NCBI GenBank assembly: GCA_017436675.1
Contig: JAFSCS010000029.1
Span: forward strand, 1 to 64,000
Reading direction: 5' to 3'
DNA from: Clostridia bacterium
GTDB taxonomy: Bacteria; Bacillota; Clostridia; Oscillospirales; CAG-382
Length of the DNA: 64,000 nucleotides
This document shows, piece after piece, positions 414 through 14,221 of this stretch; position 1 is the stretch's first letter; each line of letters starts with the position of its first letter. Both the position numbers and the translations under genes were made by a program. The notes beneath the pieces were generated by a model. That model saw only the letters and a program-made list of their open reading frames with translations. It ran no database searches and was not told the origin of the DNA.

Positions 414-1934
414 ATGGTCGAAAAGAAACAAAAAGACCTTGCGCTCGGAGCGGTCATTCTGACTGCCTTCTCTTTTTTATCGAAATTTCTCGGGATGTGG
501 TTTCGGCTATATTTGACGTCACGCATCGGGAGCGAGGGGATCGGACTTTATCAGGTCATTATGTCGGTATACACTCTTTTTGCCACCTTTGCGACGGCAG
601 GGTTTTCGGTTTGTGTTTCGAGGCTTGCGGCGGAGCGGATGGAGGGTAATGCTATGACGGGGGACAGTCGGAATGCGCTTTTCAGATGCTTGAGCCTTTC
701 GTTGATCATTGCCGTTTTCTCGATGGTTATTCTGCTTTTCGCATCTGAGTATATTGCGGCGAGTATTTTGGCAGATGAAAGAGCAGGTGTTCCGATCAGT
801 ATTTTAGCGATCAGTATGGTTTTTATCGGGCCGTGCGCGTGCTTGAAGGGTTATTTTCTCGCTGAAGGAAAGGCTTGGAAAAATGCGACGGCGATGATAT
901 TCGAGCAGCTCGTCAAGATCTCTGTCAGCGTTTTTCTTTTCTCGAGGGTATTGACCGACGCGACCGATCCCGGAAGCCTTTGTCTTGGGATCGTTTGGGG
1001 GACTACTGTCGGCGAAGCGGCTTCGTTTTTTTATTGTCTTTTTATTTTTCTGTTCAGCCGCCGTCAAGCCTCGGTAAAAAAGCACGGGGCGACGAATTAT
1101 CGCTCGATCATCAGGCTCATTATCCCACTCGCGTTCGGTTCATACGTGACGACGCTGTTACACACGGGTGAAAGCGTTTTGATACCGCGGTGCTTCGAGC
1201 TTTTCGGCGGTGACAGAGCGGAGTCGCTTGCGGCTTTCGGAGTCATCAGAGGGATGACGATACCGCTTCTGTTCTTCCCTTTTTCGTTCGTTTCGTCATT
1301 TGTGTCGCTTCTTATTCCGCGAGTAACGAAATATCGTGCAGACGGCAACGAGGCAACGTTAAAAAAGGTGGTCGAAAAAACGCTATCGGCGACGTGGGTG
1401 TTCTCAATTGCGGTGAGCAGTATATTTTTCGTGTTTGCGAAAGAGATCGCCGTCTTATTTTATCACAGTGAGGAATGCGTCTCGTCGCTTCGACTGCTTG
1501 CGCTTATTAATCCGATGATGTACGTTGAGACGGTCTCGGGCGGGTTATTAAACGGAATCGGAGAGCAAAATTTCACTCTCCGATGTAACCTGTATAATTC
1601 CGTGCTTCGAATTACCGCGATCGCCACCTTGATACCTCGCTTGGGGGTTTGGGGGTATCTTATGATATTGATCGTTTCGAATGCTTTTACATTTATGCTT
1701 TGCTATGCACGGATCTTGAAAAAGACACGCGCGAGGGTGAGGCTTTTCCGCTCTGTCATTTTTCCGACCGCCGTCTCGCTTGGGGTGGGATGGTTGGTAT
1801 ACTTTTCCGCCCACTCGCTCGGAGATCTTTTGTCGTGTATCATCGGCTCGTGCTTGGTTTTGATACCGTCGATACTATATCTCGGGAAGGACGACTTCCC
1901 TTTCAAGCGAAAACGAATAGATAATGGCACGTGA
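414..1934 (+). CDS. SpoVB/MATE-type polysaccharide flippase family protein
   Basis: A polytopic inner-membrane protein of 506 residues, close to the roughly 520 of stage V sporulation protein B. The N-terminus (SFLSKFLGMWFRLYLTSRIG, then EGIGLYQ) matches the MOP-superfamily lipid-linked oligosaccharide flippases that act in cell wall or spore cortex synthesis. Hydrophobic segments run through the whole length with short charged loops. The ATG at 414 is chosen because AAGGAG lies 6 bp upstream; an in-frame GTG at 399 overlaps that site. The gene stands alone. Its last 60 bp overlap the end of addA on the other strand. Membership of the superfamily is clear, but the exact substrate is not. Confidence 0.85.
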   Translation: MVEKKQKDLALGAVILTAFSFLSKFLGMWFRLYLTSRIGSEGIGLYQVIMSVYTLFATFATAGFSVCVSRLAAERMEGNAMTGDSRNALFRCLSLSLIIAVFSMVILLFASEYIAASILADERAGVPISILAISMVFIGPCACLKGYFLAEGKAWKNATAMIFEQLVKISVSVFLFSRVLTDATDPGSLCLGIVWGTTVGEAASFFYCLFIFLFSRRQASVKKHGATNYRSIIRLIIPLAFGSYVTTLLHTGESVLIPRCFELFGGDRAESLAAFGVIRGMTIPLLFFPFSFVSSFVSLLIPRVTKYRADGNEATLKKVVEKTLSATWVFSIAVSSIFFVFAKEIAVLFYHSEECVSSLRLLALINPMMYVETVSGGLLNGIGEQNFTLRCNLYNSVLRITAIATLIPRLGVWGYLMILIVSNAFTFMLCYARILKKTRARVRLFRSVIFPTAVSLGVGWLVYFSAHSLGDLLSCIIGSCLVLIPSILYLGKDDFPFKRKRIDNGT

Positions 1935-4900
1935 GACCTTTTTTGCCGTCATCTTTTCGATGGCACGGGCATAATATCTCAGCTGTGAGCGGTGGTGCTC
2001 GATCAATACCGTTTCATCGTCGTTGCCAACGTAGTCGGTCTTATAATCAACGACAGTGAACGTGCCGTCGTCGTTTTCGAAGAACAGGTCGATGACACCT
2101 TGCACGAGCAGCTGCTCGTTCTCGTTGCCGCCGATCAAGTCGGCATTTTCGGATATTGAGAAGCGCTTTTCACGATACACACGAGGCGAGGCTTTGATCT
2201 CGGCGTAGACCTTCGAGGTGAAAAAGCCCTCGAGCTTTTTCAAATTGAGAAGCGGGAGCTGGTCGGACTCGAGCATTTTTGCGGCGCAGAGCCGCTTTGC
2301 CTCCTCAAGTGCGCCGTTTTGCTCGACGTTGAGAAAATCGCAAAACTGCATAAACTCGTGCATTGCCGTTCCCCGTTGCGCACCGCCCGTATGCGATCTG
2401 CTAAAGGAAGGTCGCTCCATTATTATCGAGCGGTTGACGGTCGGCTCATATTTCCCGTTTTCGTCGAGCTTCAGCTCGGACACGGATGCCTTTCGAAGTG
2501 TGCCTTTGTGTGAATACGTATATTCGAGGCGTGTTTTCAGCTCACCCGCTGACAGCTCGAGCAGCTTCTCTTCGTTGCCGTCGAGCTTTTGGACCGGATC
2601 CTCGTCCGCTTTATATTCGATGATCACGTTTTCGTCCGACGGGGTGACCGCTCCGATCAAGAGGCTGAACATCGAATCGTTAAAATTGTCGTTTCCGAGC
2701 ACGAAAAGACGTTTTTTTGCTCTTGTCAAGGCAACGTACAAAAGCCTCATTTCTTCGACAAAAAGCTCGTTTTTTTCATCGAATGCATCGAGTCGGCGCA
2801 AGAGTGTGTCCTCTTTCTTGCGCTCGTCGGCGTTGCGAAAGCGGAACGAAAGTCCGCCGAGTCGGCTTATCATATATTTTTTGTTCATATCCGTCGTGTT
2901 CATCCTTTTGCCGAGTCCACCGACGAAGACGGTCGGAAAATCGAGTCCTTTTGATTTGTGGACCGACATTATCCTAACGCCGTCACCGACGCTTCCCGCC
3001 GCCTCGCCGAGCTTGTGGGTGTCGGCTGAGACGTCGTTATAATACTCCACAAACGCGGAAAGCCCACGAAACGAGCTTCCCTCAAAGCGTCTTGCATACT
3101 CGTAGAGCAATATGAGGTTGCTTCTGCCGTCGGCGGAATCGACGCCGCTATACAATGGAGTTGCAGTATAAAGATACCACAAAAGCGATTCGGTAGAAAC
3201 GTTTTCGGACATCGTTCGCCAATATTTCAGACGTTCGAGCACGTTTTTGCACTTTTGCTTCAGCTCGAGCGGAGCGTTGGTCTCGCGCAAGATACGGAAG
3301 GCAACCTTTCGGAGATCGCTTTTTTTCGTTTTGCCCTTTATCGTATATTTTTTCGCTCTTGCTCGTTCGTAGGCACACGACCTGAAGCAACGGAAAAGCT
3401 CCTTTTTTCTGCCCAACTTCCGTATCTCATACAGCTCCTCGGCGGTGATATTGAAGATCGGGCTCATTGCCGTCGATGCGAGCGACACGTCATCCATCGG
3501 GTTGTCGATCGCACGAAGAAGCGACATCGCAAGAAGGACCTCGGGACGAGCCAAAAAGTCGCCGCTTTGCTCGATGATGAACGGGATACCGTATTTTTTG
3601 AAGGCTTCGATATATTCCTTCGAGGTGGTTTTTACCGAGCGCAAAAGCAGAGCCACGTCGTTGAAGGTATACTCATTCGCTTTGACGGCTCTTACGATCT
3701 CTCTCGCACAAAACTCCGCCTCGTCCTTTAAGGACTCGCATTTTACGGTAACAACGGGATATTTGCTCATTTCCGTTTCGCCGAATCGAAGCGCTTCCTC
3801 ATCTCCGTATCCGCTCGCTCCGTTTTCTGCGGTATACGTTTTTCGGAATATCTCGTTGACGTAATTTATTATATTTCTTGACGAACGGAAATTTTCGGAA
3901 AGATAGAGCTTTGCCTCATCTTCCGCGTCCTCAAGCTTCGGGAAGCTGTCGTTATAGCCCATAAATATCGACGGCTCGGCGTTGCGGAAGCGATAGATGC
4001 TCTGCTTTACGTCGCCGACCATAAAGCAATTATTCTTTTTTCTGATGCGGCGGAAGATCTCGTCCTGAAGCGGATTTATATCCTGATACTCGTCGATATA
4101 GATCTCGCGAAGACTTTCTCGGAGCGAAAGACATATTTCGCTGTCCGAGCCGTCCGCTTCTCGAAGCAGCTCAAGCGTATAGTGCTCAAGGTCACTGTAA
4201 TCCAAAACTCCGAGCTCTCGTTTTTTCTCTCGAAACGACCTATCGAGCTCAATTTCGAGCGATTGGATCAAGCGCATCGTTTTCACGGTCCGCTTCAATT
4301 CGTCGCGCACTGCTTCGCTGTCGTTTTCATAAAACGCGGCAAGCTTTTGGAGCTTATTGTCGCTGATCTCCGATTTCAAAAAGCGAAGGCGGGCGGCATC
4401 ATCCTCATCAAGCCCTCTCGTATAGAGGTTGGACGGCTTATAGCTGAATGCTTGGCGTGAGGCATCGTAGCTTTCGCTATTTCTCAACGTCTCACAAGCT
4501 GCCTCGTGATATGCAAAATGATTATAATATGCGGGGTTTGAGACAGTCTCGGCGATCTCCTTTGCCTCATCAAGCAGCTCGAAGATGCTTTCGAGGTATT
4601 TATTCTTAATCTTTTTGAGCCGTATTCCGAGCTTCGAATCGTAGAGCTCGTCAAAATCCGTCTCTTTCTCAAGATCAACGATCATTCTCTCGAGCCATTC
4701 GAACGGATCGGGGAACGAGCGAAGCTTGTTGTATATCTCAAGAAGCATCTCCTCGAGCGGAGCGTCGTTATTGAGAGAGGTGAAGGATTCGACGAACTCC
4801 AAAAAATCGGGATCCTCGGATTCATATCTGTCGTCGAGTATCTTTTTTTGGAGCTTCTTTTTAAGCTGAACGCCTTCGGTATCGTCAAGCACTCTTACCG

Positions 4901-5285
4901 ACGGGGAGACGTCGAGCTTTTGGAAGTTATCCTTTATCAGATCGAGGCAAAAGCTATGTATCGTCGAGATGTGCGCCGTACCGACACCCATCAGCTGAGC
5001 AAAAAGCCCACGGTCGTCGGGCGTTTCGGAGAGGCGTTTTGCGAGATTCTTATATAGCTTCTCCTTGATATCTGCAGCCGCCGCTTTTGTGAACGTCACG
5101 ACGAGGATATCGTTGATATCGTAGCCAAGCTCGACACCGTTTTCGTCATATTTACCTTTGGAGACGAGGCGACGTGCTATTCGCTCGGTGAGACAGGACG
5201 TTTTTCCCGCACCTGCACCCGCAGACACGAGAAGGGTGTGCCCTCTGTCTTCAATTGCTTTGGTTTGAGCCGTTGTCCATTCCAT
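1875..5285 (-). CDS. addA: ATP-dependent helicase/nuclease subunit A
   Basis: AddA is the UvrD-like helicase and nuclease subunit of AddAB, which processes double-strand breaks for recombination. The protein has 1136 residues, a little under the usual 1200. Walker A (SAGAGAGKTS) is at residues 21-30, the Walker B-like DEYQD motif near 397, and VGDVKQSIYRF shortly after. The C-terminal RecB-type nuclease is near 1080, with GVIDLFF followed by VVDYKTD supplying its Asp and Lys. It starts at an ATG behind AAAGGAAA and overlaps the addB end by 35 bp, so the two are translationally linked. It is the last gene of a long minus-strand run. Its final 60 bp overlap the convergent flippase gene. Confidence 0.97.
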   Translation of the reverse strand: MEWTTAQTKAIEDRGHTLLVSAGAGAGKTSCLTERIARRLVSKGKYDENGVELGYDINDILVVTFTKAAAADIKEKLYKNLAKRLSETPDDRGLFAQLMGVGTAHISTIHSFCLDLIKDNFQKLDVSPSVRVLDDTEGVQLKKKLQKKILDDRYESEDPDFLEFVESFTSLNNDAPLEEMLLEIYNKLRSFPDPFEWLERMIVDLEKETDFDELYDSKLGIRLKKIKNKYLESIFELLDEAKEIAETVSNPAYYNHFAYHEAACETLRNSESYDASRQAFSYKPSNLYTRGLDEDDAARLRFLKSEISDNKLQKLAAFYENDSEAVRDELKRTVKTMRLIQSLEIELDRSFREKKRELGVLDYSDLEHYTLELLREADGSDSEICLSLRESLREIYIDEYQDINPLQDEIFRRIRKKNNCFMVGDVKQSIYRFRNAEPSIFMGYNDSFPKLEDAEDEAKLYLSENFRSSRNIINYVNEIFRKTYTAENGASGYGDEEALRFGETEMSKYPVVTVKCESLKDEAEFCAREIVRAVKANEYTFNDVALLLRSVKTTSKEYIEAFKKYGIPFIIEQSGDFLARPEVLLAMSLLRAIDNPMDDVSLASTAMSPIFNITAEELYEIRKLGRKKELFRCFRSCAYERARAKKYTIKGKTKKSDLRKVAFRILRETNAPLELKQKCKNVLERLKYWRTMSENVSTESLLWYLYTATPLYSGVDSADGRSNLILLYEYARRFEGSSFRGLSAFVEYYNDVSADTHKLGEAAGSVGDGVRIMSVHKSKGLDFPTVFVGGLGKRMNTTDMNKKYMISRLGGLSFRFRNADERKKEDTLLRRLDAFDEKNELFVEEMRLLYVALTRAKKRLFVLGNDNFNDSMFSLLIGAVTPSDENVIIEYKADEDPVQKLDGNEEKLLELSAGELKTRLEYTYSHKGTLRKASVSELKLDENGKYEPTVNRSIIMERPSFSRSHTGGAQRGTAMHEFMQFCDFLNVEQNGALEEAKRLCAAKMLESDQLPLLNLKKLEGFFTSKVYAEIKASPRVYREKRFSISENADLIGGNENEQLLVQGVIDLFFENDDGTFTVVDYKTDYVGNDDETVLIEHHRSQLRYYARAIEKMTAKKVSRAIIYSFSLEREVVLPEI

Positions 5286-8200
5286 CGCTCGTTTCCTTTC
5301 TGATTTTTTCTGCCCACTGTGTCATACTCTCATCAAGCACGGGGCGTGTTATCGTCATATCGTCGGTCACTCGGCACAGCGGTCTCAATTTGCAATACTT
5401 ACAAGCATTGACTGCTCCGCTGACGACCGGTCGGACGGCAAGATAGCCGTTTCTTATTGACGATTCGGTCTTTTTTATGTATTCGTGGATATATTTTTCA
5501 AGCTCCGAAAAGCCTTTTTCGGACAAGACGGGTGAATTCTTATAGAACGAGCCGTCTTTTTTTATTTTCACCGGGATATACGTTCCCGCACATCCGTGCT
5601 CCATCTTCATCAGGATGCTGACGTCATCGATGAAGATGCCGCTGCGCTTCAAGCTTTTTTTGAGCTTTTCGGCAAAGTTCCCGCTTTTGTCGTCCTGCTC
5701 GTCGGGTGCGGCGGCATACATATACATCGCTCCGCACGGATACGAGTCGGTCTCCTTGCAATACGAGAACAGATAAAGAAGCATTTGGAGAGAGAGCCCG
5801 TCCAGCACGTCGTCAAGCCGAAGCTCCTTTTTTCCCGTTTTGTAGTCGACGATACGAACGAATCGTTTTCCATCCTGCTCGAGAACGTCGACTCGGTCGA
5901 TTATTCCCGAAAGTCTTGTGCTTTCACCATTGAAATCGATATCTGCGGTTATTCTGCGCTCAAACTCAGTCGGCTCAAAATCGCCGCCGATAAATTCATC
6001 GCGAAGATTTTTTATTATCTCGACAGCCATCACCGTCAAGCGCTTCAAGCGGTATTCGAACCGTTTCGTCAGCTCTTTATCGGGGACGAATATTTTCGCG
6101 AACTCCTCGGCGTTCCTTTTTACGCTTTGCTCGATCATCTCATCGGTGACCTCGCGTATATTTTCGGAATATTCGCTCATAAAGTCCTCGAGAAGCTTAT
6201 GGATAAACGTACCCGTTTCGGAGCTTTCGAATTTCGCTTTTTTCGTCTCGCGTAATGAGAGCATATATTTTCCGAAAAACGAGAACGGGCAAAGACCGTA
6301 TCTTTCAATTGAGGATGGTGAGAGATAGAGCTTATCGACGTTTACGTCAAAGCGTTTTTCACGTTGAGTTATTTCGCCGAATTGGCATTCTCCGCTCTCG
6401 AGGAGATATTTTTTCGTTTCATTTGGAAGCTTTTTGAAGCTTTCGAGTGCGGTGCTTCTCGTCTCAACGTAGAATTCCTCGCTCGGCTCGGTCGCGACCA
6501 AATCGTCAAAGAGTCGTTCGACGCTCATCACCGCAACGGACGGGCTCATCAAGTCGCCCGAGGTGCCGGATAGTGTATAGGATAGGATAAGCTTTTCGGA
6601 AGGTGAAGCTATTGTACGATAGAAAAGAAAATGCTCTCTCGTTTGCGCACGTTGGGAAGTGGTCGTTGCCGCAAAATCGTAGGTCTCGAGGGTTTTGCGC
6701 TCACGCTCGGTGAAAAGGTCTCCGCCGACGCTTTTCGACGGAAAGACGCCCTCGTTGATTCCCATCACGAACAAAACCTTTTTGTCGGTGAAGCGCATCA
6801 GCTGTGCCTCTCCGACGGTGACCTCGTCGGTCGAGGTCGGAATATTGCCGAGCTCATACTCGCCGATCATCATTTTCAAGGTCTCAAAAAATCCGCGAAG
6901 CTTCACTCCCGCATCGCCGCCGACCTCGTGAAGCTGGTCTAACAGCTTTATCATTATACTCCACACGGAAAGAAGTCCGACGCACTTATCCTCCTCGCCG
7001 AGTCTTCGATAGAGCTTCGCTTTTTCGAGCAGCTTCTCATCGGCGTTGATCGAGATCAAGTGGTCGTAGATAGCCTTTGCCGCCATAGAGTAGGTGAGCT
7101 CCTTGCTTTTCAAGGCTCTGACCGCCTTTACGGTGGAATTATAGAATTTTTGTTTTGCGATATTTACGAGGCGCAGGTCGATCGCATCGTCCTTTTTCAT
7201 TTCCTCTTGGTAGCCTCTCGGGTTCATCACCCAATTCTTTTTATACATACTCTCGCCGCGAAGCTCCCACATCGTTACGTAGGAATCGAGCACGTCGCGC
7301 TCCTCGAGAGTCAGCGTCGAAAAGGATGATTTTATGTAATTCTTAACGCTTTGGACCGAATAGTCGCTTGTCGCCAATTCGACGAGCGAGAGCGTTAACG
7401 CTATGATCGATTTCGAGGAAAGCTCCTCCTTCACCGACATAAAGCAAGGGATATCGTATTTTTTCAGTACGACGTCGAGTACACCGTTATATTCGCTCGA
7501 GTCGCGCATCGCTATTCCGATGTCCTTATAGCGATATCCGTTTCTGACGAGCTTTCGTATTTTTGAGGCTACGGCGGCAGACTCCTCGAAGACGTCCTTG
7601 CATTTATATATTATTACGTTATCCTCACAGGGTATCCGTTTTGCTCCATAGTTCCACATATTCGCCTCAAGATGACGAAGTTGGTTCGTTTTGTGGCGCA
7701 CGTTCGTTGTCAGCACAATATCCCTCGTTTTCACGTGGAGCGACGAGGCAAGTCTTGTTACCGCCTTATACGTTCGTACGTTTTCGGAGAACATCTCATC
7801 ATCGTCAAGGCAAAAGGTGATGAAAACGTCCTTTGCGCTCTTCAGCACCTCGCCGATGAGAGCCATTTCCTTTCCCGTATATGAATAATATCCGTCAATA
7901 TAGACGTTCATTCCGTCAAAATAATCCATTCCGTCGATCTTTTCGATGAGTCGCTCCATTGAATCGGACGGATCGAGCGATTCGGCAAATTTCGAATTGT
8001 ATGAAGCGAGGATCAGCGAAAGATCGGAGAGCTTTTTTGAAAGCTTCGCGTCGCTTAAAGCGAGCTTTTTCGACAATTCGGTCAAGGATTCGGGTGTCAT
8101 TCGATATCTTTTCAGCTGTTCAAGCTCGGAGAGTATCTTTTTTATATGGTCTGCGCTTCGATAGGTGTTTTTATATTGCTCAAGCGACTCGCTGAGCTCG

Positions 8201-8484
8201 GCAAGTACTCCGCCGAGGATGATATCCTTTCCCGCCGAGTCGATATATTTTTCCTTCACACCGCCAACGTCTCTGAATACTCGCTCGGGGAGGCGGTCGA
8301 AGTTGAGCACCTCGCAATACATATTATAGACGTCGCCGACGGTTGTCGAAAGCTGCTGCTCCATCTCAACAGACTGCTGCTCGGGGACTATTACAAAAGA
8401 GCGAGTGGATAACCGCTCGCCTATTACGTTCATCAAATATTCCGTTTTACCGTGGCCGCTTCTGCCAATTATGCAATATAACAT
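5251..8484 (-). CDS. addB: ATP-dependent helicase/nuclease subunit B
   Basis: AddB is the partner of AddA: an inactivated helicase with an active nuclease domain and an iron-sulfur cluster. Walker A (GRSGHGKTEYL) starts at residue 7, as in the family. Near residue 730 the motif GLCPFSFF carries the first cluster Cys, and CKYCKLRPLC near 1028 carries the other three. IVDYKTG supplies the nuclease Asp/Lys pair. The ATG at 8484 is preferred because GGAGAG sits 6 bp upstream; a TTG at 8502 would include that site. The protein of 1077 residues fits the family. It lies 14 bp behind spoIIR and overlaps addA. Confidence 0.97.
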   Translation of the reverse strand: MLYCIIGRSGHGKTEYLMNVIGERLSTRSFVIVPEQQSVEMEQQLSTTVGDVYNMYCEVLNFDRLPERVFRDVGGVKEKYIDSAGKDIILGGVLAELSESLEQYKNTYRSADHIKKILSELEQLKRYRMTPESLTELSKKLALSDAKLSKKLSDLSLILASYNSKFAESLDPSDSMERLIEKIDGMDYFDGMNVYIDGYYSYTGKEMALIGEVLKSAKDVFITFCLDDDEMFSENVRTYKAVTRLASSLHVKTRDIVLTTNVRHKTNQLRHLEANMWNYGAKRIPCEDNVIIYKCKDVFEESAAVASKIRKLVRNGYRYKDIGIAMRDSSEYNGVLDVVLKKYDIPCFMSVKEELSSKSIIALTLSLVELATSDYSVQSVKNYIKSSFSTLTLEERDVLDSYVTMWELRGESMYKKNWVMNPRGYQEEMKKDDAIDLRLVNIAKQKFYNSTVKAVRALKSKELTYSMAAKAIYDHLISINADEKLLEKAKLYRRLGEEDKCVGLLSVWSIMIKLLDQLHEVGGDAGVKLRGFFETLKMMIGEYELGNIPTSTDEVTVGEAQLMRFTDKKVLFVMGINEGVFPSKSVGGDLFTERERKTLETYDFAATTTSQRAQTREHFLFYRTIASPSEKLILSYTLSGTSGDLMSPSVAVMSVERLFDDLVATEPSEEFYVETRSTALESFKKLPNETKKYLLESGECQFGEITQREKRFDVNVDKLYLSPSSIERYGLCPFSFFGKYMLSLRETKKAKFESSETGTFIHKLLEDFMSEYSENIREVTDEMIEQSVKRNAEEFAKIFVPDKELTKRFEYRLKRLTVMAVEIIKNLRDEFIGGDFEPTEFERRITADIDFNGESTRLSGIIDRVDVLEQDGKRFVRIVDYKTGKKELRLDDVLDGLSLQMLLYLFSYCKETDSYPCGAMYMYAAAPDEQDDKSGNFAEKLKKSLKRSGIFIDDVSILMKMEHGCAGTYIPVKIKKDGSFYKNSPVLSEKGFSELEKYIHEYIKKTESSIRNGYLAVRPVVSGAVNACKYCKLRPLCRVTDDMTITRPVLDESMTQWAEKIRKETSDGMDNGSNQSN

Positions 8485-8498
8485 TCCATTCTCTCCGT

Positions 8499-9074
8499 TC
8501 AATCATAAAACGAAAACCATTCGAGTATTTTTAATCTGATGGTATATTTTTTGTTTTCTCCGATGGTGAAGGTCATTTTCGCCTCTTCGCCCAACGGTAT
8601 TTTTGCAACTCCGCTATCGGTACACAAGGGTGGGAACATCACGCACCACCAATTTTCACCGCTTCCCTCTCCGATCACGATGCGAAGCGATCTGTATCGT
8701 CCTGCAGGATAGACTGTGTCCTTATAATATCTTGTCGGATATCGTTCACATCCCCATTCGAGCGAAACGGTCTCGCCGTTTCCATATTTTTTTATGGCAT
8801 TTTCGGCACATTCGACCAATCTGTCAGCTCTCGTTTCGATCAATTTCTCCGCCTCGTTGAGCGTCGATGCTCCCTCGAGGATATGAGATTTCAATATTTC
8901 ATCTCTGACCTTCAGCTTCAGCGATTGGTCATATTCACTGTTTGAGTTGGCGATGATGTGAAGCCTGATCACGCTATCGTAGATGGCGTTCTCGTTATGT
9001 ATCGGCATAATCGTCGATAAGGCACAGATCAACAACAGACTCAGGCAAAATACAAATACTGTTTTAGCGTTCAT
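8499..9074 (-). CDS. spoIIR: Stage II sporulation protein R
   Basis: SpoIIR is the secreted forespore signal that triggers SpoIIGA to process pro-sigma-E in the mother cell. The protein has 191 residues. An N-terminal hydrophobic segment (VFVFCLSLLLICALS) acts as signal or anchor. The hallmark block VIRLHIIANSNSEYDQSLKL is followed by KVRDEIL, and a second conserved block YPAGRYRSLRIVIGEG lies in the C-terminal half. It sits between ispE and addB in the same orientation. This gene is the best single indication that the organism sporulates. A forespore-specific promoter was not identified, so transcription within the larger run is an inference. Confidence 0.95.
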   Translation of the reverse strand: MNAKTVFVFCLSLLLICALSTIMPIHNENAIYDSVIRLHIIANSNSEYDQSLKLKVRDEILKSHILEGASTLNEAEKLIETRADRLVECAENAIKKYGNGETVSLEWGCERYPTRYYKDTVYPAGRYRSLRIVIGEGSGENWWCVMFPPLCTDSGVAKIPLGEEAKMTFTIGENKKYTIRLKILEWFSFYD

Positions 9075-9131: not shown

Positions 9132-9977
9132 TCACGTTGTTGTGCAATACCAAGCGAAACGATTGTTTTTTCGGATCGTCTCAACAGCGCGCTTCGCCAG
9201 ATACATATTGTTATACACTCCGAAAACAGAGCTACCGCTTCCGCTCATCATTGCCGCGATCGCGCCGCTCTCAAGAAGCAATCTTCTCGATTCGGCAACG
9301 CCGCTCTCGTCGTCGTAGCAAAGCTCAAAATCGTTTCTCATCGATCTTGCGGCTCGTCTGATATTACCGATGTTAAGATAGTGGAGAGCGTCGGTGTGGG
9401 ACCAATCCTCTCTGTTTTCTATTGAATCGATGATCTGATACATCAATTTCGTTGACGCGCCCTCGCTACCGATCGTTACAACGAGCGGGAGAGGACGGTA
9501 TATTCTTATCGGTGTCAATATCTCGCCGATGCCCTCGGCAAAGCAGGGGCGGTTATATATGCAGAACGGTACGTCCGCGCCGAGCTTTACACCGATCTCG
9601 CAAAGCTCATTTTCGCTGAGCCCTGCATCGTACATTTCGTTTAGTCCCTTCAACGTCGCCGCGGCATCGGTGCTTCCGCCACCCATACCTGCGCTGACGG
9701 GGATACGTTTTTTTATAAATATATCGACTCCGCCGTTGATACCTGTCGTTTCAAAAAAGAGCTTCGCCGCTTTATAGGCGATATTGTCGCTCTCCGTTGG
9801 GAGCGGGCGCGAGCATTTACAGCCAAGGTCGTCGCTCTTCGTCAAAGTGACTGTGTCGCAAAGCGTTATCGGAGCCATTATCGAACGAAGCGAATGGTAT
9901 CCGTCCTCTCTGACACCGCCGACTTGGAGAGTAATATTTATTTTTGCATTTGCATTGAGAATTAACGTATCCTTCAT
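9132..9977 (-). CDS. ispE: 4-diphosphocytidyl-2-C-methyl-D-erythritol kinase
   Basis: IspE is a cytoplasmic GHMP kinase that phosphorylates CDP-methylerythritol in the MEP route to isoprenoids. The 281-residue protein has the N-terminal AKINITL motif with its Lys at position 12, and the glycine-rich ATP loop PVSAGMGGGSTDAAATLKGL at about 93-112. GADVPFC contains the catalytic Asp, and the C-terminal MMSGSGSSVFG is typical. It follows the DUF362 gene by 10 bp and precedes spoIIR by 57 bp. Pairing of ispE with spoIIR is common in Firmicutes. Confidence 0.96.
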   Translation of the reverse strand: MKDTLILNANAKINITLQVGGVREDGYHSLRSIMAPITLCDTVTLTKSDDLGCKCSRPLPTESDNIAYKAAKLFFETTGINGGVDIFIKKRIPVSAGMGGGSTDAAATLKGLNEMYDAGLSENELCEIGVKLGADVPFCIYNRPCFAEGIGEILTPIRIYRPLPLVVTIGSEGASTKLMYQIIDSIENREDWSHTDALHYLNIGNIRRAARSMRNDFELCYDDESGVAESRRLLLESGAIAAMMSGSGSSVFGVYNNMYLAKRAVETIRKNNRFAWYCTTT

Positions 9978-9987
9978 TTTTAACTCC

Positions 9988-11130
9988 TTAGAGATCGAAT
10001 ATTCCGAATCTCTTGATACCCATCAAGCCGAACGGACAAAGCTCTTGACAGCAATAGCATTTTATACACGCTTCTCTGTCGATCTTTGCTTTTCCTTTTA
10101 CTATTTTTATGGCTTTTGCAGGGCAAAAATCGGCACATTTGCCACATCCCTTGCAATCCTTCATCGCCACGGGGCGCGACTCGAGAAACCTTCGAAATCT
10201 TCCGCCGAAGCCTTGGGTAAACGTCGTTATAAGGTTGAGCTTTTTTGTGTCGGGCATTTTGAGGTCCTTCAGCTTCCTCTTTTTATACTCCTCCAAATCA
10301 CCGACGAGCGTTATCTCACCGACGGTTTTCGGACAAAGTCCCATTTGGTTGGCGACGTCGAGCATCTCGACGCTGTTTTCGGGAAGTCCGAGGTAATCAC
10401 GGCACACGACGTCACATACGAACGGTGAGCGGCTTCCGAAAATTCCGCCGAAGAATCTTGCCGTACCGTTGTTGGGACCGTTGCCCTCCATTCCATAGAC
10501 GGCATCAACTATGTTGATCGCAGGAGCGAGCGTTTCGGTCAGCTCAAGCACCATTGACGAAAAGCGTTCTATTTCGGGAAAACGTGCGTGGAGCTCGAAT
10601 TTTTGAAGTCCGGGGATAGCACCGTACATATTTTTCGATGCGGCACTCATCGTTGTCAAGGTATGGGTTTTTAGCTTACATAGGTTGATTATAACGTCTG
10701 CACCCTCAAATTCACGCAACACGTTGAACTCACTGATAACGCCGTGCCGTTTTGACGGTATCGTGATCGATTCGACGTCAAAATTGAGCTCGCATCCGCT
10801 GTTTTTCGCGGCATCCTCGAAGCCCGTCGTTTTATAGAGTCCTTTCAGTATCGCCTCGTTGAAGAACCCACCCGGCGACTCGACGATGATCTTTCGAGCA
10901 TCATATTTTTCGAGCTGCTTCATCACTGCCGTCAGCATCATCGGATGTGTTGTTGAGCATGCATCGGGACCGCGTCTTATTACGAGGTTCGGCTTTATAA
11001 CTATTTTTTTTGCATTTTTGAGGATATCATCAGCAGATATATCATCAAATATTTTTCGAACGCACTCCGTTATCTCTTCCTCGAGATAGGAGTCGGCTTT
11101 ATAGTAGGAGACCTTATTTTCTGAGATCAT
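9988..11130 (-). CDS. DUF362 domain protein with two 4Fe-4S clusters
   Basis: A 380-residue protein with an N-terminal DUF362 domain (KIVIKPNLV near residue 45, VIINLCKLKTHTLTTMSAASK near 180). A C-terminal two-cluster ferredoxin module is built from CKGCGKCADFCP and CIKCYCCQELCP. The eight cysteines fit two [4Fe-4S] clusters, so an electron-transfer or redox role is likely, but no reaction has been assigned to this family. It overlaps the upstream aminotransferase gene by 17 bp and is followed 10 bp later by ispE, so it is surely co-transcribed. The family call is firm; the function is unknown. Confidence 0.9.
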   Translation of the reverse strand: MISENKVSYYKADSYLEEEITECVRKIFDDISADDILKNAKKIVIKPNLVIRRGPDACSTTHPMMLTAVMKQLEKYDARKIIVESPGGFFNEAILKGLYKTTGFEDAAKNSGCELNFDVESITIPSKRHGVISEFNVLREFEGADVIINLCKLKTHTLTTMSAASKNMYGAIPGLQKFELHARFPEIERFSSMVLELTETLAPAINIVDAVYGMEGNGPNNGTARFFGGIFGSRSPFVCDVVCRDYLGLPENSVEMLDVANQMGLCPKTVGEITLVGDLEEYKKRKLKDLKMPDTKKLNLITTFTQGFGGRFRRFLESRPVAMKDCKGCGKCADFCPAKAIKIVKGKAKIDREACIKCYCCQELCPFGLMGIKRFGIFDL

Positions 11131-12286
11131 TTACAAAATCCTCGATATTATTTAATGCTTTTTCGATATGGCGGACGGAATATGCATAGGATATTCTCGC
11201 AAATCCCTCGCCACATTCACCAAATGCGCTTCCCGGAACTATTGCAGTATTTCTTTCGTAGAGCAATCTTTCGCAAAACTGCTCGCTCGTCATACCGAAC
11301 TCGGAGACGTTCGGGAAAACGTAGAATGCGCCATAGGGCATAAAGCATCTTAGCCCTATCTCCTCGAGCCTTGAGGTGATCAAGCGACGGCGCTTGTCGT
11401 ATTCGGCTTTCATATATTCGATATCGTCATCGCCGTTCTTGAGCGCTTGGATCGCGGCATATTGGCTCGTTGTCGGAGCACACATTATTCCGTATTGATG
11501 AAGCTTCAGCATCTGTACGGTGAACTCCTTCGGTGCGAGTGTATAGCCGAGTCGCCAGCCCGTCATCGCGTATGCCTTCGAAAAGCCGCCGATGACTATC
11601 GTGCGCTCTCTCATATTTCCTATCGATGCGATCGACGTATGCTTCGTTCCGTAGGTGAGCTCGCCGTATATCTCGTCGCTGACGATTACGGCGTTCGTCT
11701 TTTCGATGACCTCGGAAACTGCCTCGAGATCCTCCTTCGTCATTATCGCGCCCGTCGGATTGTTCGGGAACGCAAGGACGATCGCCTTCGTTCGCGGCGA
11801 CAATACGCTTTTCAGCTTTTCGGGAGTCAATTTGAACTCGTCCTTTTCCTCGAGAGGAAGCGAAACGGGCTTTCCGCCACACATCGTTACAAGCGGTGCG
11901 TAGCAAACGAAGCACGGCTCGGGGATTATTACCTCGTCACCCGTGTTCAAGACGGCACGGAACGCGATATCGATCGCTTCGCTTCCGCCAACGGTGACGA
12001 TTATTTCTGTTTTCGGATCGTATTCAAGCCCGAAGCGGCGTTTTTGGTAGCTTGATATTTCGGTTCTGAAATCGAGAAGTCCTGCGTTACTCGTGTAATA
12101 GGTCCTTCCCTCCTCGAGACTCTTTATTCCTGCCTCGCGGATATGCCACGGGGTGACGAAGTCGGGCTGTCCGACGGTCAACGACACAACGCCCTTCATC
12201 TCGTCCAAAATATCGAAAAATTTTCTTATTCCCGAAGGCTTCAGCGAGGTCGCACGCTCCGAGAGTACACTATTTACGTCAAACAT
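11114..12286 (-). CDS. PLP-dependent aminotransferase, class I/II
   Basis: A fold-type I aminotransferase of 390 residues. The substrate-binding VGQPDFVTP motif is near residue 40, GSEAIDIAFRAV near 105, FPNNPTG near 175 and SDEIYGELTYG near 204. The PLP lysine lies in GGFSKAYAMTGWRLGY, about residue 234. The set fits the aromatic/branched-chain aminotransferases often called PatA-like. Its start overlaps the stop of the Lrp-type regulator as TAATG, which suggests that the regulator senses the amino acid handled by this enzyme. The substrate cannot be read from the sequence. Confidence 0.93.
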   Translation of the reverse strand: MFDVNSVLSERATSLKPSGIRKFFDILDEMKGVVSLTVGQPDFVTPWHIREAGIKSLEEGRTYYTSNAGLLDFRTEISSYQKRRFGLEYDPKTEIIVTVGGSEAIDIAFRAVLNTGDEVIIPEPCFVCYAPLVTMCGGKPVSLPLEEKDEFKLTPEKLKSVLSPRTKAIVLAFPNNPTGAIMTKEDLEAVSEVIEKTNAVIVSDEIYGELTYGTKHTSIASIGNMRERTIVIGGFSKAYAMTGWRLGYTLAPKEFTVQMLKLHQYGIMCAPTTSQYAAIQALKNGDDDIEYMKAEYDKRRRLITSRLEEIGLRCFMPYGAFYVFPNVSEFGMTSEQFCERLLYERNTAIVPGSAFGECGEGFARISYAYSVRHIEKALNNIEDFVNDLRK

Positions 12287-12765
12287 TATAATACGTTCGT
12301 CCTTGCATCTTCCTTAGACGGTGCGAAAAGGATACCTTCCTCTTTGTATTTGTGAAGAATGAAATGTGTTGCCGTCGAGGTCACAAATTCGAGCGGAGCG
12401 AGCTTTTCAACGACGAAATACGCCACCTCGCGCATCGTTTTACCCGCGATAAAGAGGGCGAGGTCAAAGCCGCCACTCATCAAATATACGCTTTTCACCT
12501 CATCATAATTGCAGATGCGTTCTGCAACGTGGTCAAAGCCTCTGTCCTTTTGGGGTGTTATCTTCAATTCGATGAGTGCGCTCACCGTCTCGTTGCCGAC
12601 CTTATCCCAATCTATTACGGCACGATATCCGAGTATCGTTCCTTCCTTTTCATATTCTTCGATCATTTTCTTTATATCGCCGACCTCTTTTCCGAGCATT
12701 ACGGCTATTTGTTTGTCGGTCAATCTCGCGTCTTGTTCAAGCAATTTCAAAAGGGATCTTTCCAT
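12286..12765 (-). CDS. Lrp/AsnC family transcriptional regulator
   Basis: A 159-residue feast/famine regulator. Residues about 5-55 form the AsnC-type helix-turn-helix (LLEQDARLTDKQIAVMLG). The remaining part is the RAM effector-binding domain with KSVYLMSGGFDLALFIAGKT. Such proteins form dimers and higher oligomers, bind an amino acid, and control nearby amino acid metabolism. Translational coupling to the aminotransferase (TAATG) makes that gene the obvious target or functional partner. The PHP gene ends 13 bp upstream. Confidence 0.93.
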   Translation of the reverse strand: MERSLLKLLEQDARLTDKQIAVMLGKEVGDIKKMIEEYEKEGTILGYRAVIDWDKVGNETVSALIELKITPQKDRGFDHVAERICNYDEVKSVYLMSGGFDLALFIAGKTMREVAYFVVEKLAPLEFVTSTATHFILHKYKEEGILFAPSKEDARTNVL

Positions 12766-12778
12766 TTTCGTTCTTCCT

Positions 12779-13615
12779 TTATATTTTTATTTGTATTGGT
12801 TCTCTGTTTTTATATACTGTAATATAACGAAATCCTATCGTTTTCAAAAGCTCGCAGGCATTATCGATATCCTTACCGACGTCGCTCGGTATATGGGCAT
12901 CGCTTCCGACGGTTATCAGCTCACCGCCGAGCTCTCTATAGCGGCGAAGCAACGTTTCGTTCGGCAAAAGCTCACCCATTTGCTGTCGAAGCCCCGAGGT
13001 ATTACATTCGAGCGCGATATTATTTCTTATACACGCCTTCATTATTTCCGAAAACTCCTCGCGGTAGTCCTTTTTCAGATCCATCAGATATCCTCTGCCG
13101 TTTTGCTTATAATATCTGTATGGATACGTGATATGTGCGACGGTATCGAATCGTCTTTCACCATTTTCGACCGCCCAGGCTATTTGGTTTAGCTGGTCCT
13201 CGAGGTATTCCTCGAAAACGGCGATCATCTCGGAATCGGTCTTATCGTATGTCATACTCAAAAAATCGAACTCGCGGCGTGGCGCGTGGATCGAGCCGAT
13301 CACGAAATCGAACGGCTCCGTCGTTACGAGGCGATATGACTCGTTCTTCTCCTTTATCGCATCACCGAGCTCCATTCCGTAGAGCACTTCTATTTTATCA
13401 CCATACCGATCCTTCGCCTCAAAGACGGCTTTTCGGTATCCGTCGAGGTCGAAGGTGCGAGTTTTCGAGGTCTTTATCATATCGACGTCATAATGCTCGG
13501 TGAAGGCTATATATTTCATTCCGAGCGATATTGCCGCTTCACAATTACCGTTTACACTTCCCTTTTTTGCATCGTGGGAGAAAGAGGAATGTGTATGCAT
13601 ATCTGCAAAGATCAA
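12779..13615 (-). CDS. PHP-domain phosphoesterase, histidinol-phosphatase HisJ-like
   Basis: A 278-residue member of the polymerase and histidinol phosphatase superfamily. The trinuclear metal site is recognisable: ADMHTHSSFSHD near the start, AFTEHYD near 40, GSIHAPRRE near 110, VAHITYP near 160 and VGSDAHIPSDVG near 240. This order fits HisJ/HisK histidinol-phosphatase, which removes phosphate from L-histidinol phosphate. No other histidine biosynthesis gene is nearby except the degenerate HisB-like gene 18 bp upstream, so the physiological substrate is open. It may be a general phosphoesterase. Confidence 0.85.
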   Translation of the reverse strand: MIFADMHTHSSFSHDAKKGSVNGNCEAAISLGMKYIAFTEHYDVDMIKTSKTRTFDLDGYRKAVFEAKDRYGDKIEVLYGMELGDAIKEKNESYRLVTTEPFDFVIGSIHAPRREFDFLSMTYDKTDSEMIAVFEEYLEDQLNQIAWAVENGERRFDTVAHITYPYRYYKQNGRGYLMDLKKDYREEFSEIMKACIRNNIALECNTSGLRQQMGELLPNETLLRRYRELGGELITVGSDAHIPSDVGKDIDNACELLKTIGFRYITVYKNREPIQIKI

Positions 13616-13633: not shown

Positions 13634-14152
13634 CTATTTCAAGCATTCAAAAAAGCATTTTCCGAGCGAACGGAACACCGCCTCGGCTTTATGGCGGTCA
13701 CCGCCGTTCCCGAAAACGTAGACGTGGAGCGTTTTCCCCATCGCATAGGCATAGGTCTTCAAAAAGTCGCTTATGTATTTTTTGTCGTCCGCAAGCTCAC
13801 AATCGAAAACGAACGCTGTCAAGGCATCTTCCGACAGATCGACAACGGATTTCGCAAGTGATTCTCCAAACGGCATCTCGCAAGAAGCGACCATTTCGTC
13901 ATCGATATCCTCGAGTGCGGCACGGGTGCAATTTCCCATCAACACAGCGACGGTATCGGCAGTATATTCGTTTGTTTCCTCAACCTCGACGTTGAGCTCG
14001 ATCTGTCCGTATCTGCAAAAGCTTCCCAAAAGGAGATCGAGCGTTTTGTTACCCGTTGTCCCGAAAAAACCGCTCTCCTCCGAATTAAAGGTCATTTCGA
14101 CGCTGACCGAGTATACGCCGTTTTCTCTCGTTGATTCTCCGTAGTAGATCAT
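13634..14152 (-). CDS. HisB-like protein with degraded metal sites (putative pseudoenzyme)
   Basis: A 172-residue protein with the overall pattern of imidazoleglycerol-phosphate dehydratase. It has STRENGVYSVSV for the RxTxET start, and TGNKTLDLLLGSFCRYGQIE for the TGxxFFDHMLxxxxxHG block. ADTVAVLMGNCTRAAL, PFGESLAKSVVDLS and GKTLHVYVFG follow in order. The catalytic HHxxED is replaced by EYTADT, and the final HHxxEA by RHKAEA, so most manganese ligands are gone. The ATG at 14152 is used because GGAGG lies 7 bp upstream; an upstream in-frame start would cross the promoter. It is the first gene of its run and is followed by the PHP gene. Homology is read by eye and needs a profile check. Confidence 0.7.
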   Translation of the reverse strand: MIYYGESTRENGVYSVSVEMTFNSEESGFFGTTGNKTLDLLLGSFCRYGQIELNVEVEETNEYTADTVAVLMGNCTRAALEDIDDEMVASCEMPFGESLAKSVVDLSEDALTAFVFDCELADDKKYISDFLKTYAYAMGKTLHVYVFGNGGDRHKAEAVFRSLGKCFFECLK

Positions 14153-14192
14153 ACCCTGCCTCCGAATTCGTATAATTATGCTATTATATTTT

Positions 14193-14221
14193 ATTATACA
14201 GCACTCGCTCTGAAAAATCAA
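14193..14221 (-). promoter_or_regulatory. Promoter of the HisB-like to addA gene run
   Basis: The minus strand carries TTGATT, a 17-bp spacer and TATAAT, about 40 bp before the HisB-like ATG. No terminator-like hairpin was seen between this point and the addA end, so nine genes may share this start. Confidence 0.75.

Follow-up and report, generated by a model that had tools for sequence, protein, structure and literature searches.

How does a gene that still reads as a homologue of imidazoleglycerol-phosphate dehydratase (IGPD, HisB), and in which most of the metal-binding residues are gone, come to stand at the head of a tightly packed gene run beside a HisJ-like phosphatase, and is its protein still selected? 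The locus lies in the first 64,000 nucleotides of contig JAFSCS010000029.1 of a gut-type Clostridia bacterium (assembly GCA_017436675.1), which were analysed as a whole and are called the window here; the source genome (G000) is a MAG of 1.54 Mb, estimated to be 54% complete. The gene, which we call hisB', leads nine same-strand genes that overlap or are separated by gaps of no more than 57 nt, in agreement with the nine-gene operon described in the initial annotation. The features of this region, read in the direction of the run, are as follows.

14193 to 14221, minus strand: promoter-like site TTGATT-17-TATAAT, ending about 40 nt before the hisB' start codon (10 of 12 consensus bases; a consensus match only).
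14152 to 14166, minus strand: Shine-Dalgarno sequence GGAGG shortly 5' of the hisB' ATG (direct sequence reading).
13634 to 14152, minus strand: hisB', a degenerate IGPD/HisB homologue of 172 amino acids (PF00475, ligand loss, codon usage and fold conservation).
12779 to 13615, minus strand: PHP-family HisJ-like phosphatase with all metal ligands kept (TIGR01856; alignment with syntenic orthologues).
12286 to 12765, minus strand: Lrp/AsnC-family regulator, a synteny anchor (PF01037; 69% identity to the orthologues in the relatives G012 and G022).
11114 to 12286, minus strand: class I/II PLP aminotransferase, a synteny anchor (PF00155, PRK07682-like; 72% identity to the G022 orthologue).
9988 to 11130, minus strand: protein with DUF362 and 2[4Fe-4S] ferredoxin parts (PF04015 and Fer4 domains).
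9132 to 9977, minus strand: ispE-like gene (sequence reading; syntenic matches in G022, G007 and G004).
8499 to 9074, minus strand: spoIIR-like gene (sequence reading; syntenic matches in G022 and G004).
1875 to 8502, minus strand: addB-addA-like genes at the end of the nine-gene run (sequence reading; syntenic matches in G022 and G004).

For RNA regulators such as a T-box, Rfam gave no match in the window.

The family assignment of hisB' is clear. Its product matches the Pfam IGPD profile PF00475 over residues 33–166 with 61.1 bits (E 1.7e-16; cut-off 27 bits), and the alignment spans profile positions 1–143 of 144; hisB' is thus homologous to HisB (EC 4.2.1.19) over nearly the whole domain and shares structural motifs with it, which bears out the earlier identification of a HisB-fold protein at this position. 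The ORF lies on the minus strand. Its matches in the PDB are solved IGPDs only, the best being 6fwh (E 2e-9). Twelve HisB models in NCBIfam also match the product, each far below its equivalog cut-off (best 51.4 bits against cut-offs of 189–443), so that the protein does not group with functional IGP dehydratases by this measure. Identity to the HisBs compared is 20–28%, against 43–97% among the canonical HisBs of relatives themselves. AlphaFold2 with three sequences as input returned a pLDDT of 34 for hisB' and of 35 for a canonical HisB control.

The residues that distinguish hisB' from HisB were mapped by alignment with 27 canonical HisBs of relatives, with the profile alignment in support. 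The ligand positions were taken from published structures (PMC10978614, PMC4509728) and are given in Arabidopsis numbering, the Medicago numbering of PMC10978614 having been converted by a constant shift of 68: Mn1 is held by H73, E77, H145 and H170 (from the neighbouring subunit), and Mn2 by H47, H74, H169 and E173. Only H145, H170 and E173 of these eight remain in hisB'. At the Mn1 positions it has Glu, Asp, His and His (His73 replaced by Glu, Glu77 by Asp), and at the Mn2 positions Leu, Tyr, Arg and Glu. The reading of EYTADT in place of HHTVED and of RHKAEA in place of HHxxEA was therefore correct, as the profile alignment also indicates, but the loss goes further than had been listed. The catalytic glutamate E21 is Val, H55 is Tyr, R99 is Met, R121 is Asp and K177 is Arg; nothing remains of the C-loop, which holds S199 and K201, and the C-terminal PSTKGxL is absent; and FDHML has become LDLLL, xHGG has become RYGQ, the Arg of IxRxG has become Met and SGRP has become SEDA. 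Deletion of the C-loop abolishes activity in the IGPD of P. furiosus (PMC4509728). Because five of the eight metal ligands, the catalytic Glu, the phosphate-holding residues and the C-loop have been lost, dehydration of IGP by the hisB' product is very unlikely. Preferential loss of functional columns was not significant: 3 of 15 of these and 14 of 43 other invariant columns are kept (Fisher p 0.51). In having lost its catalytic residues while its fold is apparently kept under selection, hisB' resembles pseudoenzymes in general (reviewed in PMC5106787); no report of an IGPD pseudoenzyme was found in the open-access literature.

All four Mn1 positions of hisB' carry residues that could bind a metal, whereas the Mn2 positions are Leu, Tyr, Arg and Glu. 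This pattern would fit an enzyme with one metal, in which an altered Mn1 site of two histidines and two carboxylates survives the destruction of Mn2 and catalyses something other than IGP dehydration. We regard such an enzyme as improbable, as the set Glu73/Asp77/His145/His170 is seen in a single sequence, the substrate pocket and the C-loop are gone, and a pattern over so few positions may arise by chance. Slightly less probable again is the more specific proposal that hisB' has become a single-metal protein with a new Mn1-type site and a function outside histidine synthesis, beside the Lrp regulator, the aminotransferase and an active PHP protein.

The neighbouring PHP gene presents a different picture. 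Its product scores 147.7 bits against TIGR01856 (cut-off 90.2), which places it in the HisJ family of histidinol phosphatases, and the HxH, ExH, H, H and DxH metal motifs are conserved in it, as they are in its syntenic orthologues. The lrp-adjacent PHP gene of G012, G007 and G009 encodes the sole HisJ-family protein above the cut-off in each of them and is, for that reason, probably the histidinol phosphatase of these organisms. The window PHP gene is the positional orthologue of these genes; it looks like the ancestral histidinol phosphatase, and we see no sign in its sequence that it has been repurposed.

The gene order in relatives suggests how hisB' came to adjoin it. In the nearest relatives, G022, G012 and G007, about 4 kb separate a canonical hisB from the counterpart of the window lrp downstream of it; the order is hisB-H-A-F-I/E-PHP-Lrp-aminotransferase, and matches to ispE, spoIIR and addBA come after the aminotransferase in G022 and partly in G007. 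Upstream of hisB, hisZ-G-D-C are present in G007, and no further his gene was found in G022 and G012 within the stretch read. The window has the order hisB'-PHP-Lrp-aminotransferase, without hisH-A-F-I/E between hisB' and the PHP gene, so that hisB' occupies the position of the ancestral hisB; the loss of hisH-A-F-I/E from between the two would be the simplest change. Among 80 named loci found via the Lrp protein, hisB stands beside the PHP gene only in the contigs of GWF2_38_85 (G022) and STF2_5 (G012). In the locus of the nearest Lrp relative (L079, 74%), an unrelated ORF precedes the PHP gene, and the genome record has no IGPD match. The Lrp regulator is followed by the aminotransferase in all 80 of the loci fetched in this way (compare window positions 9988–12765), and in some of them a DUF362-ferredoxin gene comes next.

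In a phylogenetic tree the hisB' branch carries about 10 changes per column and is saturated, leaving the gene unplaced; its descent therefore rests on synteny and on subtype profiles. Against profiles built from subsets of HisBs, hisB' scores 65.9 bits with the three syntenic HisBs, 67.9 with type A and 71.8 with G019, G022, G012 and G007 combined, and only 36.8–41.6 bits with type B profiles, which include the intact HisB of its own genome. Judged by these two lines of evidence and by a second his operon in the genome, hisB' is the superseded native hisB rather than a member of some new gene pair.

The superseding genes are found on another contig of the same genome, C39, where a canonical HisB (C39:33209, 213 bits) is encoded within hisZ-G-D-C-B-H-A-F-IE-J. 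This HisB and hisB' are the two IGPD matches of the genome. The statement that the two histidine-pathway folds stand side by side without the pathway thus holds for the surroundings of hisB' but not for the genome, in which the proposed check for a second, normal hisB and hisJ finds both. Because the C39 operon holds another HisJ-family gene, the window PHP gene is redundant in this genome, in which respect it differs from its counterparts in G012, G007 and G009. The tetranucleotide profile of C39 correlates with that of the window at r 0.964–0.969, the same as within the window, and a binning error was rejected on this agreement in composition.

Some further observations concern this operon and its family. 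The HisJ-family PHP gene lies at its 3' end (L071:10483-11283, locus L071 being part of C39), giving the genome two HisJ candidates above the cut-off. The hisD gene contains a frame break (L071:5650-5670) that divides it into 302 and 122 residues, the second part being in another frame; the break could be genuine or could stem from the assembly, and the function of the C39 histidine pathway is not certain because of it. In the family of this organism (L001, L004-L032), HisB occurs as two sequence types, the GTSGIGFFDHML and NTGxGFLDHML forms; each family genome that was read has one type or the other, and G000 holds an intact copy of one type and a relict of the second.

hisB' was seen in this one genome only. 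No orthologue was found in 63 genomes of the family, in 391 genomes of the class or, with peptide patterns, in genome contigs, and no HisB was found in viral contigs. One extra match among the 391 class genomes (L159) proved on reading to be a canonical HisB and not an orthologue of hisB'. The HisB loci read among relatives encode canonical HisBs. Of the genomes listed for a sample of 394 from the order, only G000 has two IGPD matches; in a phylum sample of 299 genomes there is one other, G866 (a weak best score, E 2.3e-34), whose double match is possibly one gene split between contigs.

These results bear on the proposal, made in the initial annotation, that hisB' and the PHP gene form a repurposed pair whose products act jointly on a new phosphorylated ligand. 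The two genes are adjacent, only 18 nt apart and probably cotranscribed, and the PHP protein looks active from its sequence. However, the adjacency appears to be left over from the ancestral his operon. The PHP protein keeps every metal ligand, while the residues with which HisB holds phosphate, and the C-loop, are mostly gone from hisB'. The suggested search for co-occurrence found the pair in G000 alone in every set searched. The repurposed pair is thus not supported, and we consider joint action on a new ligand highly improbable.

Is hisB' instead a plain decaying relic, on its way to becoming a pseudogene since the operon was replaced, with an open frame and a profile match that persist from its past and with an idle protein? 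Its native position and the superseding operon would fit such a history, as would its extreme divergence (20–28% identity to the HisBs compared), the disappearance of its catalytic sites and the lack of an orthologue in the genomes searched. Neutral decay should, however, have left other traces. Drift to the identity of hisB' would on average have met about 12–18 stop-creating mutations, and hisB' contains none; its internal insertions and deletions are all in frame. Drift would also have left AT-rich third positions like those of intergenic DNA. The GC content at third positions is 0.60 in hisB', against 0.52–0.66 in other genes of the window and a GC content of 0.32 between genes, and its synonymous-codon log-ratio of +0.212 lies near the value for genome-like codons (0.230 ± 0.048) and far from the neutral expectation (−0.250 ± 0.055).

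Finally, drift would have placed the profile score far under the 58 bits that hisB' reaches against the IGPD family profile. When consensus ancestors were drifted neutrally in 3,000 runs, with stops disallowed and the deletions of hisB' allowed for, mean scores were 2–7 bits and no run exceeded 36.9. When real HisBs were the starting point, mean scores in 1,200 runs were 8–22 bits and the highest was 57.0; this version of the test is the weaker one because the G019 runs come closest to the score of hisB'. Under a simple substitution model, with the divergence placed after the loss of catalysis and one genome as the sample, hisB' exceeds what drift would leave in frame, codon usage and profile similarity alike, and we consider a decaying relic unlikely.

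The same simulations bear on the idea of a leader ORF, kept open with suitable codons only so that transcription and ribosome entry at hisB' feed the downstream genes without polarity, its amino acid sequence being free. hisB' heads nine closely spaced genes and lies just downstream of a promoter-like site and a Shine-Dalgarno sequence, which would suit a leader. A leader would account for the open frame and the codon usage but not for the match to the fold profile, as simulations from consensus ancestors that forbid stops reach no more than 37 bits. We consider a leader ORF improbable, slightly more so than a decaying relic. Taken together, the start signals, the codon usage, the frame and the fold tests argue for purifying selection on the hisB' protein.

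We therefore favour the reading, to which we give a probability of about 0.7, that hisB' is the native hisB left at its old site and now encodes a protein of the HisB fold that has no catalytic function but is maintained by purifying selection. The common ancestor with G022, G012 and G007 would have had the cluster hisB-H-A-F-I/E-hisJ(PHP)-lrp-aminotransferase. The pathway would be supplied, now or earlier, by the other his operon, that of C39, which has its own hisJ and whose HisB belongs to another sequence type. Loss of hisH-A-F-I/E from the old site would have brought hisB' to abut the PHP gene, and hisB', freed from catalysis, would have been stripped of the Mn2 site, if not of both Mn sites, and of its C-loop, the catalytic glutamate and the residues that bind phosphate, while it retained the match to the IGPD fold, the start signals and the reading frame. 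We infer this order of operon supply, gene loss and residue loss from the present state of the locus.

Because the fold match, the start signals and the frame are kept, expression of hisB' is most likely, as a HisB-fold protein devoid of catalysis, and we infer that its product adopts the fold of an IGPD subunit. The functional enzyme is a 24-mer. In some species IGPD breaks up into inactive trimers when Mn is withdrawn (PMC10978614); by analogy, we would expect a hisB' product with incomplete metal sites to form trimers. Our first suggestion for its role, put forward tentatively, is that of a non-enzymatic partner that binds or stabilizes a co-produced protein, either the PHP protein or, by mixed assembly, the C39 HisB.

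In summary, hisB' appears from these analyses to be a real and unusual pseudoenzyme-like gene, the neighbourhood of which is explained by operon loss. For annotation, it carries the warning that a score above the Pfam cut-off for IGPD does not guarantee that a protein is an enzyme. HisB is normally a single, highly conserved copy per genome, as the order and phylum samples indicate, and hisB' provides a clear case of a possible aftermath of the replacement of a biosynthetic operon, in which one old gene survives and perhaps takes another role.
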